DNA of 64,000 nucleotides from Yoonia sp. GPGPB17 (GTDB taxonomy: Bacteria; Pseudomonadota; Alphaproteobacteria; Rhodobacterales; Rhodobacteraceae): NCBI RefSeq assembly GCF_037892195.1, contig NZ_JATACI010000002.1, positions 1,488,001 through 1,552,000 of the forward strand, written 5' to 3'. Below, piece by piece: positions 20,639 to 35,842 of this stretch; position 1 is the stretch's first letter, and every line of letters starts with the position of its first letter. Under the pieces are notes generated by a model. That model did no database searches. It was given only the letters and a program-made list of their open reading frames with translations, and had not been told where the DNA came from. A program made the translations under genes and the position numbers.

Positions 20639-20684
20639 AATGCTCTCGGTCATCTAAAACAGGTAATGAGTGAGGAAACACCTG

Positions 20685-20963
20685 ATGTTCACAAGAACCA
20701 TGGCATGCGCCGCCGCAATCGCCCTATCCACAACATCCGCCTTTGCAGGTGGACTTGCAGACGCCATCGTCGAGACGCCCCCAATGGAAGAGGCAGTCGC
20801 ACCAGCTGCCGGTCCATCTATCGAACCAACGTACATCGTTGTTGGCATTCTCGCCGCTCTTTTGATCGCAGCGGCCGTCAATGATGATGACGATGATGGT
20901 GATGGTGATGGTGATAATGGCGGGGATAATGGCCTTGGCGATATCACTGACGTGCGCCGATAG
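20685..20963 (+). CDS. small exported membrane protein, tandem paralogue 2
   Basis: A 92-aa protein with signal peptide (LSTTSAFAGG), the linker IVETPPMEEAVAPAAGPS, a membrane helix (PTYIVVGILAALLIAAAVN) and a C-terminal tail alternating Asp, Gly and Asn (about 20 residues). It is nearly identical to paralogue 3 through the helix, and the two differ mainly in the tail. ATG 20685 follows GAGTGAGGAA; an in-frame GTG at 20670 is less likely because paralogue 3 starts at the matching ATG. The tail suggests cation binding outside the membrane, an inference. Monocistronic, between its operators and terminator. Confidence 0.72.
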   Translation: MFTRTMACAAAIALSTTSAFAGGLADAIVETPPMEEAVAPAAGPSIEPTYIVVGILAALLIAAAVNDDDDDGDGDGDNGGDNGLGDITDVRR

Positions 20964-21095: not shown

Positions 21096-21162
21096 GGTAT
21101 GGAATACCTTTCTTTTCGTATACTTTGAGCGGCAAACCGTTGACGCAAAGTTAACCCTTTGC
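21096..21162. promoter_or_regulatory. paired palindromic operators of small paralogue 3
   Basis: GGTAT-GGA-ATACC at 21096-21108 and GCAAAG-TTAACC-CTTTGC at 21145-21162, spaced 36 bases as before paralogue 2, with TTGACG at 21140-21145. The sequence between the two palindromes has diverged while the palindromes have not, so they are likely under selection. Confidence 0.6.
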
Positions 21163-21206
21163 AATGTTCTCGTTCACGAAAATTCATAACGAGTGAGGAA
21201 CAGAAT

Positions 21207-21491
21207 ATGTTTACGAGAACAATGGCATGCGTCGCAGTGCTTGCCCTATCCACCACATCCGCTTTTGCAGGTGGACTTGCAGACGCAATTGTCGAAACGC
21301 CTCCGATGGAAGAAGCTGTCGCACCCGCAGCCGGCCCTTCGATTGAGCCGACATACATTGTGTTGGGCGTCTTGGCGGCGCTTTTGATCGCTGCCGCAGT
21401 GAATGAAGACGACGATGATGATGATGGTGATGAGCCAGTGCGCGTACGTATGAAAGAAGTGGAATTCGACACAACCCCGCTTGACAACTAA
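21207..21491 (+). CDS. small exported membrane protein, tandem paralogue 3
   Basis: A 94-aa protein: signal peptide (LSTTSAFAGG), linker IVETPPMEEAVAPAAGPS shared word for word with paralogue 2, membrane helix (PTYIVLGVLAALLIAAAVN), then NEDDDDDDGDEP and a longer C-terminal extension VRVRMKEVEFDTTPLDN not found in the others. ATG 21207 has GAGTGAGGAA upstream. Operators, promoter region, gene and terminator form a unit duplicated from that at 20572-21021. Function unknown. Confidence 0.72.
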   Translation: MFTRTMACVAVLALSTTSAFAGGLADAIVETPPMEEAVAPAAGPSIEPTYIVLGVLAALLIAAAVNEDDDDDDGDEPVRVRMKEVEFDTTPLDN

Positions 21492-30670: not shown

Positions 30671-31345
30671 ATGAAGCTTCTTGTCGGCCTTGGAAACCCG
30701 GGCGCGAAATACGCGCAGAACCGTCATAACATCGGCTTTATGGCGATGGACCGAATTGCAGCGGACCACGGGTTCAGCGGTTGGCGATCGAAGTTTCAGG
30801 GGCAAACCTGCGACGGGCGCTTTGGCCCCGAAAAGGTCACACTGCTGAAGCCAGAGACTTTCATGAACCTTTCCGGCCAGTCGGTGGGCGAGGCGATGCG
30901 CTATCTCAAACTCGCGCCCGAGGATGTGATTGTGTTCCACGACGAGATCGATCTGGCCCCCGGCAAGGTCCGCCTGAAGACAGGTGGTGGGCATGCGGGA
31001 CACAATGGGTTGCGCTCCATCCACGGGCATATCGGACCGGATTATGACCGCGTGCGCATGGGGGTCGGACATCCCGGGCACAAGGACGCGGTGCCGGGCT
31101 ATGTGTTGCGCGACTTTCCCAAGGCGGATGCAGAGTGGCTGGATGATGAATTGCGCGGTGTCAGTGATGGCATTGCCGAATTGATCGCAGGCGATGGCGG
31201 CAAGTTTTTGAATGCAATCGCACTGCGTGTCGCACCGCCGCGATCTTCAAAGTCAGCCCCGAAACCCAAAGCGGTTGCACCTGCGCCAGAACCGGCTCCC
31301 GACACACGGTCAGCCATGCAAAAACTTGTGGACAAGTTTCGGTGA
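30671..31345 (+). CDS. pth: peptidyl-tRNA hydrolase
   Basis: A 224-aa enzyme that frees tRNA from stalled peptidyl-tRNA. Catalytic Asn10 and His20 are in GLGNPGAKYAQNRHNIG, FMNLSG near residue 65 and HDEIDL with the catalytic Asp near residue 94 are intact. A proline/alanine-rich C-terminal extension of about 35 residues (KPKAVAPAPEPAPDTRS) is usual for Rhodobacteraceae. The last base pairs overlap the next gene (GTGA). Confidence 0.97.
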   Translation: MKLLVGLGNPGAKYAQNRHNIGFMAMDRIAADHGFSGWRSKFQGQTCDGRFGPEKVTLLKPETFMNLSGQSVGEAMRYLKLAPEDVIVFHDEIDLAPGKVRLKTGGGHAGHNGLRSIHGHIGPDYDRVRMGVGHPGHKDAVPGYVLRDFPKADAEWLDDELRGVSDGIAELIAGDGGKFLNAIALRVAPPRSSKSAPKPKAVAPAPEPAPDTRSAMQKLVDKFR

Positions 31346-32454: not shown

Positions 32455-32838
32455 ATGGAAAAAGACCCTTCATTCAACGTCCTCGGCAGTACACTGACCG
32501 CATGTTCAACTGCACCGATGACGGGTTTCTTCCGCAATGGCGCCTGCGACACATGCGCAGCTGATCAAGGCAGCCATACCGTTTGCGCCGTGATGACTGA
32601 TGAATTCCTCGCCTTCTCAAAATACGTGGGCAATGACCTGAGCACGCCACGCCCGGAATATGGGTTTCCGGGGTTAAAGGCCGGTGATGGGTGGTGTCTC
32701 TGCGCCAGCCGCTTTCTGCAAGCGCATGAGGAAGGCTGCGCGCCGCAGGTCAACTTGCATGCAACCCATGTGCGGGCTTTGGAAATCGTCTCGATTGAAA
32801 TTCTGCGGGACTATGCGATTGGCACATCAGCCGGTTGA
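32455..32838 (+). CDS. DUF2237 family protein
   Basis: A 127-aa protein that matches the DUF2237 pattern throughout: NVLGSTLTACSTAPMTGFFR at the start, HTVCAVMTDEFLAFSK, GNDLSTPRPEYGFPGLKAGD, WCLCASRF, and the C-terminal THVRALEIVSIEIL. Conserved Cys and acidic residues suggest a metal or redox site, but no function is known. It ends inside the convergent luxR gene (12-bp overlap). Confidence 0.9.
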   Translation: MEKDPSFNVLGSTLTACSTAPMTGFFRNGACDTCAADQGSHTVCAVMTDEFLAFSKYVGNDLSTPRPEYGFPGLKAGDGWCLCASRFLQAHEEGCAPQVNLHATHVRALEIVSIEILRDYAIGTSAG

Positions 32839-33312
32839 AGACGCATCCATAAGATCGTCAATGAAAAGACTAAGCAACTGCGTGCGCCCCGATACATCCG
32901 CCTTGCGGTAGATCGCATTTGTCTGCGCCTTGATGGTGCCTTCGCTGACATCGCGCAGGGCGGCGATTTCCTGCGTGGACATGCCCTTGATCGCAAATAG
33001 GGCCACATCGCGTTCTGCCGGTGTCAGCTCCCACGCGGCAAAACGTTCTTCCAGCACATCCATAAAGGCGCCCGAGGCCAGCCTGAGTTGATCTTCTACG
33101 ACCACATTGCGCGCCATGGTTCGACGCAATACAACCCAGCCGAAGCCCACGCCCAGAAGCAGGCCCAGGGCCGCGCCGATTTCCACCAGTTCGTGAAGCT
33201 GCCAACTGATCGGTGCGACGCCTAAAACTGACGCGATGATCTGCGATACAAAAAAGACGGCGCATAAAAGCTGCACCGCAACGATCAAGACGACAGTCCA
33301 TTGACCTTTCAA
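32827..33312 (-). CDS. membrane-anchored LuxR-type regulator
   Basis: A 161-aa protein with two N-terminal transmembrane helices (VVLIVAVQLLCAVFFVSQII and VEIGAALGLLLGVGFGWVV) and a C-terminal GerE/LuxR helix-turn-helix (LTPAERDVALFAIKGMSTQEIAALRDVSEGTIKA overall, about residues 97-155). Membrane-tethered LuxR proteins of this size occur widely in Rhodobacteraceae; their targets are unknown. It follows the two poly-aspartate genes on the same strand with 28 bases between, so it may be co-transcribed with them and regulate them. Confidence 0.82.
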   Translation of the reverse strand: MKGQWTVVLIVAVQLLCAVFFVSQIIASVLGVAPISWQLHELVEIGAALGLLLGVGFGWVVLRRTMARNVVVEDQLRLASGAFMDVLEERFAAWELTPAERDVALFAIKGMSTQEIAALRDVSEGTIKAQTNAIYRKADVSGRTQLLSLFIDDLMDASSTG

Positions 33313-33340: not shown

Positions 33341-33802
33341 TCAATCATCGTCCCCATCATCACCGCCGTCATCATCATCGCCATCGTCGTCGTCGTCATC
33401 ATCATCGTCGTCGTCATCATCGTCGTCATCATCATCATCGTCGTCGGCATCATCGTCGTCGGCATCGTTGTCGTCATCGTCGTCATCGTCACCTCCGGCT
33501 GATCCACTTCCGGGGTTGAAGATGCGCGGTCCATCATTGTCATCGTTATTGTCGTCATTTGTCTCAATCGTTCGCCAGTAGTCCCGCAGAATCTCTCCTG
33601 TCTGGGGGTTGAAAACCAACTCGCGGCGCAAATCATCACGAAAAGCCGTCACGCGGATACGCCCGAGCCACGTGCGTTGTAGCGTGATTTCCGAGAAGCC
33701 CTGTCCCTGCAACTGGCTGACAATCTGGTCCTGCACGGACTGGGCCGCCGCAAAATGCGGCGCCCCAGCGAGTACAAGACATATAGCGACCCGTTTCAGC
33801 AT
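33341..33802 (-). CDS. exported PepSY-like protein with poly-aspartate tail (1)
   Basis: A 153-aa protein: signal peptide (LVLAGAPHFAAAQ), an alpha/beta PepSY-like domain (SVQDQIVSQLQGQGFSEITL; VFNPQTGEILRDYWR) to about residue 80, a linker (PRIFNPGSGSAGG), then a C-terminal tail of about 48 residues that is almost all Asp, broken by a few Asn, Ala and Gly. The tail is a GAC/GAT microsatellite. No enzyme motif. Probably periplasmic or extracellular; cation binding is an inference from charge. Twenty-one bases after its paralogue. Confidence 0.8.
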   Translation of the reverse strand: MLKRVAICLVLAGAPHFAAAQSVQDQIVSQLQGQGFSEITLQRTWLGRIRVTAFRDDLRRELVFNPQTGEILRDYWRTIETNDDNNDDNDGPRIFNPGSGSAGGDDDDDDDNDADDDDADDDDDDDDDDDDDDDDDDDDDGDDDDGGDDGDDD

Positions 33803-33823
33803 GAACGGGCCGCGGATGCGTAA

Positions 33824-34312
33824 TTAGTCATCGTCGCCATCATCATCGTCGTCATCATCATCGTCATCGTCATCATCGCCGTCGTCGTCATCGTCATCGT
33901 CATCGTCGTCATCGTCATCGTCGTCATCGTCGTCATCGTCATCGTCGTCATCGTCGTCATCGTCATCGTCATCGTCATCGTCGTCATCGTCATCGTCATC
34001 GTCATCGTTCAGATCAACGAAGTCGTCATCATCATCTTCGATCGTCACGCCAGGTTCCAAATCGTCGTCATCATCAACAGGTTCTACCTCCTGTTCAAGG
34101 ATTTCACCGGTTGCACGGTCATAAACCGCTTCCAGCTTACGATTGTTACGGACGGCTTCGACTTTGACCTGTGTCGGGCCATTGGTGACTTCAATACTCT
34201 CATAACCTTCTGCCTGTAGCGCCGAGATCACTTGTTCAGCAACTGACTGGGCGTGCCCTGCACCGGCGGTCAATGCAAACATGGCGGTAGTGGATAGCAA
34301 AATCTTTTTCAT
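33824..34312 (-). CDS. exported PepSY-like protein with poly-aspartate tail (2)
   Basis: A 162-aa paralogue of the preceding protein: signal peptide (FALTAGAGHAQ), PepSY-like domain (SVAEQVISALQAEGYESIEV; VYDRATGEILEQEVEPV), two short Asp clusters (DDDDDLEPG, EDDDDDFVDLN), and then 60 final residues that are all Asp except two Gly; the first 42 are consecutive Asp. The net charge would be extremely negative. Frame is certain because the other strand and frames give only repetitive Ser/His/Thr-Met strings. Function unknown. First gene of the three-gene set ending in luxR. Confidence 0.82.
   Translation of the reverse strand: MKKILLSTTAMFALTAGAGHAQSVAEQVISALQAEGYESIEVTNGPTQVKVEAVRNNRKLEAVYDRATGEILEQEVEPVDDDDDLEPGVTIEDDDDDFVDLNDDDDDDDDDDDDDDDDDDDDDDDDDDDDDDDDDDDDDDDDDDGDDDDDDDDDDDDDGDDD
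33827..34006. repeat. GAC/GAT trinucleotide microsatellite
   Basis: One hundred and eighty bases made of GAC and GAT codons (GTC/ATC on the plus strand) with many internal 6- and 9-base repeats. A second, shorter tract lies at 33344-33495. Such tracts slip during replication, so tail length should vary between strains; each gain or loss of three bases keeps the frame. Confidence 0.9.
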
Positions 34313-34429
34313 GGGTCATTCCTCTCGGGACATTGCAGCGCACCCCGCGTGCACCGCCTGTCCAGATCAAAAGCCAACCCCACATGCTGACGCTATCCAC
34401 CATGCGTTTATTCTGAATAGCGTAAACCC

Positions 34430-34462
34430 AAGAAAGAAGCGTCTAAACCAAAGTTTAGACGC
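34430..34462 (-). terminator. trpB terminator
   Basis: Reading on the minus strand: GCGTCTAAAC-tttg-GTTTAGACGC, a perfect 10-bp stem (34439-34462), followed by TTCTTTCTT. It begins 7 bases past the trpB stop. Confidence 0.75.
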
Positions 34463-34468
34463 GTCTGG

Positions 34469-35695
34469 TTAGGTATTCATGTCAAAGCCAAGGTGCTGGG
34501 CAACCGTGAAAATATCCTTATCTCCACGTCCACACATGTTCATGACAAGCAGATGGTCCTTGGGTAGATCGGGCGCGATCTTCATCACATGGGCCAGTGC
34601 ATGCGAAGGCTCCAACGCCGGGATGATCCCTTCTTGTGCGCAGCACAACTGAAACGCCTCCAAAGCCTCTGCATCAGTGATCGCGACATATTTTGCCCGC
34701 CCGATGTCGTGCAGCCAGGCGTGCTCTGGCCCAATACCGGGATAATCCAAACCGGCGGAAATGCTGAACCCTTCAAGAATCTGCCCGACGTCATCTTGCA
34801 ACAGATAGGTGCGATTGCCATGCAGCACGCCGGGGCGCCCACCGGTGAGAGAGGCGCAATGCTCCATCTTGGCATTCACGCCCTTGCCGCCTGCCTCTAC
34901 CCCGATGATGTTGACCTCTTTGTCATCCAGAAAGGGGTAGAACAGGCCCATCGCGTTCGAGCCGCCACCAATGGCGGCAATCAGTGTGTCGGGAAGACGC
35001 CCTTCGGCGGCCTGCATCTGCTCTTTGGTTTCCTTGCCGATGATGGCCTGGAAATCGCGCACCATGGCCGGGTAAGGGTGCGGACCAGCCACCGTACCGA
35101 TGCAGTAGAATGTATCGCGCACGTTGGTCACCCAGTCACGTAGTGCATCGTTCATGGCATCTTTCAGTGTACCCCGACCGGATGTTACGGCGACCACTTC
35201 AGCTCCCAAAAGGCGCATGCGGAAAACGTTTGGCGCCTGCCGTTCCACATCATGCGCACCCATGTAGACCACGCATTTGAGGCCGAATTTGGCACAGACC
35301 GTCGCTGTCGCAACACCGTGCTGACCTGCACCGGTTTCAGCAATGATACGGGTCTTTCCCATGCGGCGCGCAAGGATGATCTGGCCCAGAACATTGTTGA
35401 TCTTATGCGCCCCAGTATGGTTCAGCTCATCACGCTTAAGATAAATCTTGGCACCACCCAGATGCTCGGTCAGGCGTTCAGCATGATAAAGCGGGCTAGG
35501 ACGCCCAACATAATGGGTCCACAGATCGTGCATTTCGGCCCAGAAAGCCGCATCTGTTTTGGCATGCTCGTACTGCTCTTCCAACTCAAGGATCAGCGGC
35601 ATCAGGGTTTCAGATACAAAGCGTCCGCCAAAGTCGCCAAAGCGGCCCTTTTCGTCGGGACCCATCATGAAACTGTTAAAGAGATCGTTGGCCAT
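34469..35695 (-). CDS. trpB: tryptophan synthase beta chain
   Basis: A 408-aa PLP enzyme that joins indole and serine. The PLP lysine is Lys98 in [12 protein letters not shown]; the phosphate-binding GGGSNAMG is near residue 238, and [11 protein letters not shown] near residue 305. ATG 35695 fits the family start ([20 protein letters not shown]); upstream codons come from the hairpin element and are unrelated. Last gene of trpF-(small ORF)-trpB, with a three-armed hairpin element in its leader and a terminator behind it. Confidence 0.97.
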
Positions 35696-35765
35696 AGGAC
35701 ACCTGCTGTTTTTCGCACTCGCCAGACCTAGCGATTCTGTGATTGATCGTAAAGCGTTGAAGGTG

Positions 35766-35842
35766 CCGCAGGTGCGGTGATCAAGGCTTTTGGAAAAGCC
35801 TTGCCCAATTCCTTTCAAGGAATTGGCTTACCGCACCTGCCG
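35766..35842. repeat. three-armed inverted-repeat element before trpB
   Basis: An outer 11-bp inverted repeat (GCAGGTGCGGT at 35768-35778, ACCGCACCTGC at 35830-35840) encloses two perfect hairpins: AAGGCTTTT-GG-AAAAGCCTT (35783-35802) and CCAATTCCTT-TC-AAGGAATTGG (35805-35826). Folded as RNA or extruded DNA it makes a three-way junction with three long stems. The stop codon of the small upstream ORF lies in the outer arm. No terminator T-tract. Function unknown; attenuation, mRNA processing or an inserted palindromic element are possible. Confidence 0.75.

Follow-up and report, generated by a model that had tools for sequence, protein, structure and literature searches.

Three genes on the minus strand of the window (the whole stretch of 64,000 nucleotides that was analysed) make up the locus, and they are transcribed in the order P1, P2 and TM-LuxR; the coordinates of all features are collected in Table 1. 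Two adjacent paralogues with giant poly-aspartate tails had been predicted at this place, and such tails were found, 60 residues long in P1 and 49 in P2, with 42 consecutive Asp in the 162-aa protein. Altogether, Asp accounts for 70 of the 162 residues of P1, where the 42-residue run (aa 103-144) is followed by G, 13 D, G and 3 D, and for 51 of the 153 residues of P2, where the longest run is 21. When the window was shuffled ten times by mononucleotide, the longest six-frame Asp runs reached 3-4 residues, and the only other runs of at least 5 in any frame of the real window were of 5 and 6 residues, near 20.9 and 21.4 kb. The N-termini of P1 and P2 were signal-peptide-like as judged by eye, and no RTX nonapeptide repeat (Pfam HemolysinCabind) was matched in either protein.

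Table 1. Positions of the genes, acidic tails and candidate control elements in the window.
Feature	Position	Strand	Remark
P1, PepSY_2 protein	33824..34312	-	162 aa; signal-peptide-like start; 60-aa Asp tail
P1 acidic tail, aa 103-162	33827..34006	-	42 D run = 33881-34006
P2, PepSY-like protein	33341..33802	-	153 aa; signal-peptide-like start; 49-aa Asp tail
P2 PepSY-like core, aa 22-78	33569..33739	-	
P2 acidic tail, aa 105-153	33344..33490	-	
TM-LuxR	32827..33312	-	161 aa; two hydrophobic segments and C-terminal GerE helix-turn-helix; TTG start assumed
trpB (label by sequence reading)	34469..35818	-	Upstream neighbour, outside the system
Operator-like dyad TAAACTTTGGTTTA, half-sites 1 and 2	34444..34457	-	Conserved
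Half-site 3, GTTTA	34423..34427	-	16 nt after the dyad
Half-site 4, TAAAC	34406..34410	-	12 nt after half-site 3
-10-like GGATAG	34393-34398		After half-site 4; by eye

The Pfam families tested on these proteins were PepSY (PF03413), PepSY_2 (PF13670) and GerE (PF00196). A small PepSY-like domain had been proposed for both paralogues, and in P1 it scored 25.1 bits against PepSY_2, narrowly above the cut-off of 24.3. P2 alone gave no PepSY match in the Pfam scan; it is nevertheless PepSY-like as judged from profile, alignment and model, since the profile built from its relatives matched P1 (E 2.4e-6), weak PepSY and PepSY_2 matches were obtained in 6 and 5, respectively, of the 68 aligned P2 cores, and AlphaFold predicted a core fold of one helix and four strands (pLDDT 96.4). 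The membrane LuxR gene expected on the same strand after the pair was also present, its frame beginning 28 nt downstream of P2 and its product combining two hydrophobic segments (windows within aa 1-37 and aa 42-63) with a GerE domain (33.8 bits against a Pfam cut-off of 23.5). A Pfam scan of just these three genes found no kinase or receiver domain in P1, P2 or TM-LuxR. Among solved structures, sequence searches returned no convincing relative of P2 (best E 0.11) and none of TM-LuxR at 1e-6.

To follow the locus through other genomes, the P2 core was scanned against named genomes, which gave 140 relatives; the best 80 of the 140 were examined, a set that under-represents weaker relatives and that is partly repaired by a family sample of one genome per genus. 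By record names, nearly all of the best 80 of 140 came from Rhodobacteraceae or roseobacters, with L105, L119 and L127 being other or broader. A membrane LuxR gene lay downstream on the same strand in 77 of these 80 loci, counting L090, where it is in pieces, and the other 3 are cut off by the end of their contig. In the family sample, P2 relatives were present in 63 of 149 genomes. Pooling of both sets gave 148 distinct loci after removal of three duplicates from 151. The original prediction had staked itself on conservation of the arrangement in relatives, and the arrangement is kept: LuxR adjoins P2 (same strand, -700 to +400 bases) in 140 of the 148 distinct loci, and two PepSY frames lie on the LuxR strand in 101. 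As for the other 8, the contig ends in L116, L128 and L142, LuxR is present but broken, offset or more distant in L090, L186 and L240, and it is absent from view in L226 and L239.

The flanking genes (ihfB-lapA-trpF-trpB and DUF2237/DUF2332/pth) are at least partly common to most loci. In the window, the pth-like gene of this conserved block, labelled by sequence reading, lies at 30671-31345 on the plus strand. The P2 alignment was made of 67 locus cores and the window, leaving out, among others, L090 (stop in the matched stretch) and L081 (looks shifted), and the LuxR alignment of 70 locus sequences and the window, leaving out the partial L117 and L139. Across the 71 LuxR sequences, the outer loop and the second helix are conserved, with E41, A47, G50 and L51 invariant and P34, W37 and E44 nearly so. 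In L081 (Roseobacter sp. CCS2) a short stretch of the P2 core deviates and then matches again, as if frame-shifted, owing to either a sequencing error or a real change.

We then considered the tails themselves. Their near-pure Asp composition, as originally described, holds for the window and not for the orthologues, in which pure Asp is found alongside Asp/Glu, Asp/Arg, Asp/Ser and Asp/Gly mixtures. A GAC/GAT microsatellite had also been proposed; both codons are indeed present (GAC/GAT 36/34 in P1 and 25/26 in P2, counting all Asp codons), in a mixed tract and not in a uniform repeat. Because orthologous tails need not be pure Asp, the microsatellite is one state of the tail and not its essence. 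Among 79 P2 tails, a set without L090, whose frame has no tail, the median acidic fraction was 0.54; 66 tails contained at least 30% D/E, 49 were at least half D/E, and 70 had at least 3 acidic residues among the last six. On the wider set, 145 of the 148 P2 tails were long enough for scoring and 40 of these fell below 30% D/E, some being poly-Gly/Asn; the PepSY-LuxR pair can exist without the polyanion. The length of the P2 tail had a median of 79 aa (IQR 66-90, range 0-241, n=148), and the idea of slippage as an adaptive length switch found no support beyond differences between species.

In order to see which residues replace Asp, codons one transversion away from GAY were counted in Asp-rich stretches, which were picked on Asp alone, a choice that does not favour Glu. 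Neutral drift would be expected to give similar counts of Glu, Val+Ala and Tyr+His, because two transversions are open to each class. The stretches of P2 contained Glu 253, Val 4, Ala 20, Tyr 6 and His 30, and those of P1 Glu 248, Val 12, Ala 9, Tyr 7 and His 48; these are counts without p-value or fitted mutation model, the codons in repeats and related species being not independent. Transition products were common (Gly 236 in P2 and 73 in P1; Asn 80 and 45), and Arg and Ser also occurred within the acidic stretches, so that flexible polar residues appear to be tolerated and hydrophobic ones rare. On these sequence counts the tail is biased towards charge, its exact sequence not being fixed.

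A direct comparison was made between the window and Roseobacter sp. CCS2, whose LuxR genes are identical at 403 of 486 nt. The P1 tails measure 84 and 85 codons, counted from where the core ends and with the stop codon, and their DNA gave 202/243 over the aligned positions with 21 gaps, as compared with 188/237 for the core, low complexity inflating the tail figure. Between these two, the tail DNA has thus diverged no further than the core; in the longest runs, GAC and GAT follow each other in a different order. Between core and tail, a hydrophobic-hydrophobic-x-Pro motif was found at most 32 residues after the PepSY core in 49 of 79 P2 tails (shuffled mean 0.5, maximum 3), with a pattern that was defined only after inspecting the tails; it hints at a docking motif between domain and tail. 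In L055, L173 and L227, the position of P1 is occupied by acid-tailed proteins without a PepSY match, which argues that the tail matters apart from its domain.

Tails of this kind also occur on EF-hand proteins. Acidic or poly-Asp tails were carried by EF-hand proteins in 4 of 35 same-genus genomes (G002, G006, G015 with two, and G023), cases that, like the RTX case below, came from followed leads and not from a blind screen. In G023, up to seven EF-hand matches (Pfam 6.5e-28) were obtained in the protein encoded directly before a second PepSY-LuxR pair, and in G006 the EF-hand protein ends in a long DES/DDE tail and adjoins a 2OG-Fe(II) oxygenase gene. The homologues in G002 and G015 (two) end in poly-Asp, and one G015 copy scores under every Pfam EF-hand cut-off. 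Tailed EF-hand genes were found in 4 of 23 genomes with a close LuxR relative versus 0 of 12 (p 0.28, not significant), and the same homologue search gave none in the window's own genome. Such similar tails are a hint towards calcium. Separately, an RTX protein gene was seen near the PepSY-cytochrome b561-LuxR set of L157.

The region upstream of P1 was then compared among the loci. A dyad, TAAAC-N4-GTTTA, whose pattern was defined only after inspecting sequences, occurs exactly in 103 of the 148 distinct loci (105 of 151 before duplicate removal), with 45 of the 148 having no exact site. A first scan of upstream regions of up to 220 bases had found it in 32 of 81, and, in the 151 loci, 102 of 108 occurrences lay at most 900 bases upstream of the first PepSY frame found. 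Exactly 16 nt beyond the dyad, 59 of 106 occurrences have a third half-site, GTTTA, and the consensus of those 59 shows a fourth half-site, TAAAC, 12 nt further and then a -10-like AAT element. The last half-site would thereby lie near the expected position of a -35 element, as for an activator.

The three-half-site form occurs once in the window's genome, before P1, and once in each of 14 of 35 same-genus genomes; it is absent from the others, and the reversed control gave 0. All 14 copies stand upstream of the P1-P2-LuxR operon, 13 by position relative to LuxR matches, and the fourteenth (G020:C33) was equated with locus L116, whose site precedes its PepSY genes. With kinship ignored, 14 of the 23 same-genus genomes that have a close LuxR relative carried the form and 9 did not, as against 0 of the 12 genomes lacking such a relative; likewise with kinship ignored, acid tails were commoner in loci with the site (83/102) than in those without (22/43). 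The encoded TM-LuxR is the obvious candidate binder of the site, a link drawn from co-occurrence. As 34 of 106 dyad occurrences are not near trpB, the dyad seems to travel with the operon.

A reading of the dyad as a terminator of trpB was rejected as its main meaning, both for these 34 occurrences and for the extra pairing beyond the dyad, which was alike in the two groups (mean 1.4 and 1.1 bases). A wider regulon was considered and rejected, the short dyad being not enriched in the window's genome, with 2 places versus 3 for the reversed control; the other exact copy (G000:C2:1748703-1748716, L246) falls at the start of a membrane-protein-like ORF. TAAAC-N4-GTTTA was absent at the second LuxR pairs of L086-L088 and at the pairs of L054, L056 and L062, and covariation of the recognition helix with the site was uninformative, as nearly all helices are alike.

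We tentatively propose that the three genes form one self-contained, self-regulated module, in which an envelope polyanion, probably a buffer of Ca2+ or other cations, is run by the PepSY/membrane-LuxR pair; a probability of roughly 0.42 is given to this reading. P1 and P2 would be exported to the periplasm or beyond, each as a small PepSY domain joined by a short linker to a disordered tail with tens of negative charges. The tails would take up divalent cations, Ca2+ being the likeliest, at high capacity though low affinity, much as the Asp-rich end of calsequestrin does. TM-LuxR would sit in the inner membrane with almost nothing protruding; because only a short stretch seems to lie outside the membrane, a partner is more likely than a built-in sensor domain to inform it about the envelope, and PepSY proteins touching its conserved short outer loop and second helix could convey the envelope's state. 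It would in turn control transcription through the TAAAC/GTTTA half-sites before P1, perhaps as an activator. The sole conserved long site precedes the polyanion genes, so the visible product of the regulation is the polyanion, and this favours a self-adjusting buffer over a broad stress switch. The polyanion would be the main output of the regulator, and a feedback loop would set the amount of acid polymer in the envelope.

It is possible, if doubtful, that the system serves signalling only, the PepSY proteins being DbfQ-like regulators of the membrane LuxR and the tail, too scarce to buffer, being an antenna for divalent cations, cationic peptides or outer-membrane damage. According to the available part of one report (PMC12714742), the sensor domain of DbfS is the binding partner of DbfQ, a small PepSY protein of the periplasm, two-component systems have PepSY genes in their vicinity more than 60-fold above chance, and P. 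aeruginosa has two PepSY genes before BqsRS; the pairs without acid tails speak in the same direction. However, the long-form site was found solely at the P1-P2-LuxR operon in 35 genomes, where weaker or single sites elsewhere are possible, and the tails are very large for an antenna, similar ones being carried by non-PepSY and EF-hand proteins.

Many of the named organisms carrying P2 relatives are marine, which, along with the signal-peptide-like N-termini, would suit a surface or matrix polymer, in which secreted or displayed tails would hold on to polysaccharide bridged by Ca2+, seed mineral or make the cell surface softer. An acidic C-terminus has also been described in a mussel shell protein (available part of PMC9808598). 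A dedicated inner-membrane regulator, however, better fits the periplasm, and, on passing inspection, the operon showed neither a second export signal nor a surface gene; we consider this explanation quite unlikely.

Intrinsic destabilisation of the ribosome is Mg2+-dependent, and a nascent-chain attenuator could operate in which the Asp runs destabilise the translating ribosome and lower translation of P1/P2 and LuxR at low Mg2+. In the available part of one paper (PMC9718836), consecutive acidic residues can abort bacterial translation and Pth2 cleaves D/E-run peptidyl-tRNAs in yeast; the short gap of 28 nt between P2 and the LuxR frame and the pth gene (label by sequence reading) in the same block would fit as well, the presence of pth being possibly a coincidence. 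The same part stresses N-terminal acidic runs, whereas the tails of P1 and P2 are C-terminal, many orthologous tails are interrupted by Arg, Gly or Ser, and P1 bears the same tail though it does not adjoin LuxR, which together make attenuation very improbable. A neutral microsatellite, where GAC/GAT slippage extends a harmless tail, is the most strongly disfavoured of all, for the short-period repeats detected, the fact that GAT never follows GAT in the 42-residue Asp run of P1, which is a sign of repeat copying, and the tail DNA shared with CCS2 no worse than the core, inflated as that figure is by low complexity, are set against Glu 253 versus Val+Ala 24 and Tyr+His 36 in the acidic stretches of P2 (codons not independent), acidity retained in 66 of 79 P2 tails and a restricted range of lengths.

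The self-regulated envelope buffer has partial likenesses among known systems. In DbfQ-DbfRS of Vibrio cholerae and PA2658/PA2659-BqsRS of Pseudomonas aeruginosa, one or two small exported PepSY proteins stand beside an envelope-sensing regulator, so that this placement is already known (available part of PMC12714742), and among the references of that paper is a title that ties a PepSY protein to metal binding. In contrast to these systems, the regulator here is one membrane LuxR protein that has neither a kinase nor a receiver domain, the PepSY proteins end in giant acid tails, and in the genomes searched the long control site stands nowhere but at its own operon. For the PepSY protein linked to metal binding, we know of no acid tail or LuxR partner. 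A literature search that covered few subscription journals returned no title or abstract describing acid-tailed PepSY proteins or a PepSY/membrane-LuxR pair, in agreement with the original view that no system of such form had been described; the search likewise brought up no description of the membrane-LuxR partner, the giant acid tails or the private control site.

Regulators of the one-component ToxR/ToxS type hold their DNA-binding domain at the inner membrane and have a co-encoded envelope partner, and in this TM-LuxR is like them; it differs in its GerE-type helix-turn-helix, its two hydrophobic segments and a practically missing outer domain. Calsequestrin, a luminal protein with an Asp-rich C-terminal tail, is a parallel in working and not in descent. 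It belongs to another kingdom and differs in fold and size from P1 and P2, for which we infer Ca2+ binding. It is reportedly through its Asp-rich C-terminus that calsequestrin makes contact with STIM1, a Ca2+ sensor of the membrane (available part of PMC4471903).

If the buffer module is real, it would carry PepSY-based signalling beyond two-component systems, to a membrane regulator made of one protein, and would clearly exemplify selection that acts on the charge of a disordered tail and not on its exact sequence; an operon with a ready control site makes the idea directly testable. The holding and sensing of free Ca2+ in the bacterial envelope are poorly understood, and to our knowledge no dedicated high-capacity bacterial calcium store has been described; the roseobacter-type gene set may be a self-regulating envelope buffer of calcium or other cations.

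A further gene was found in some of the loci. A TIGR02466 / 2OG-FeII_Oxy_5-like gene lies between P1 and P2 in 6 of 148 loci (L083, L086, L087, L088, L098 and L189), and L175 has perhaps a shifted piece of the same gene; family scores were obtained for the copies of G023 and G006. Among the 35 same-genus genomes, 10 carry the oxygenase gene, all in the group with a close LuxR relative (10/23 versus 0/12, p 0.007, kinship ignored), five within the operon, one beside an acidic EF-hand gene and four elsewhere. The window's genome gave no match to it. Asp is hydroxylated by some 2OG oxygenases, so the tail could plausibly serve as a substrate, and the 2OG-Fe(II) oxygenase-like gene is a candidate for an Asp hydroxylase acting on it. 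At L253:2906-3541, a 2OG-Fe(II) oxygenase-like gene was observed beside an acidic EF-hand gene. A bolder version of the buffer, which we hold to be unlikely as a whole, would make it the bacterial equivalent of calsequestrin: a widespread buffer of envelope Ca2+, with poly-Asp tails attached to PepSY and EF-hand domains, its amount adjusted by a membrane LuxR which senses the buffer protein itself and acts on one operator per genome, and in some species with tails tuned through Asp hydroxylation by the co-encoded 2OG-Fe(II) oxygenase.

Beyond the family, a relative of the membrane LuxR at E 1e-12 was present in 17 of 289 genomes of the class. Among the 18 loci fetched, a PepSY-type neighbour was seen in 7 (L152, L153, L156, L157, L158, L162 and L165), cytochrome b561 or a dihaem cytochrome c was seen in 3 more (L155, L159 and L161), and neither a PepSY nor a cytochrome neighbour was in view in 8. 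Pfam confirmed PepSY_2 in L153, L156 and L157, cytochrome b561 in L157 and the dihaem cytochrome in L159, the remaining neighbour labels being based on resemblance or a custom profile. The PepSY proteins of L162 and L165, which belong to another family, have acid tails, and some PepSY-LuxR pairs of Rhodobacteraceae are tail-less or have poly-Gly/Asn tails. Because pairs without acid tails exist both in the class and in some Rhodobacteraceae, the PepSY-LuxR pair probably came first, with the acid tail as a later addition that is now common in Rhodobacteraceae. The cytochrome neighbours suggest redox or iron, not calcium, for the older module.

Several single loci depart from the usual form. In other families of the class, relatives of the membrane LuxR adjoin either cytochrome b561, some together with PepSY and some not, or dihaem cytochrome c (L152, L155, L157, L158, L159 and L161), and L220, L226 and L230 have PepSY proteins of the same family in which poly-Gly/Asn tails replace the acidic ones. 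At L202:1233-2321, the P1 homologue has two tandem PepSY stretches preceding its acidic tail, and at L218:1890-2339 a different ORF, with a signal-peptide-like start and a low-complexity tail rich in Thr/Ser/Asp/Glu, lies between the two PepSY genes. In the window itself, the runs of 5 and 6 Asp belong to two tandem small paralogues on the plus strand (20670-20963 and about 21159-21491), each with a signal-peptide-like start and one hydrophobic segment, followed by a short NDDDDDGDGD or EDDDDDDGD stretch.
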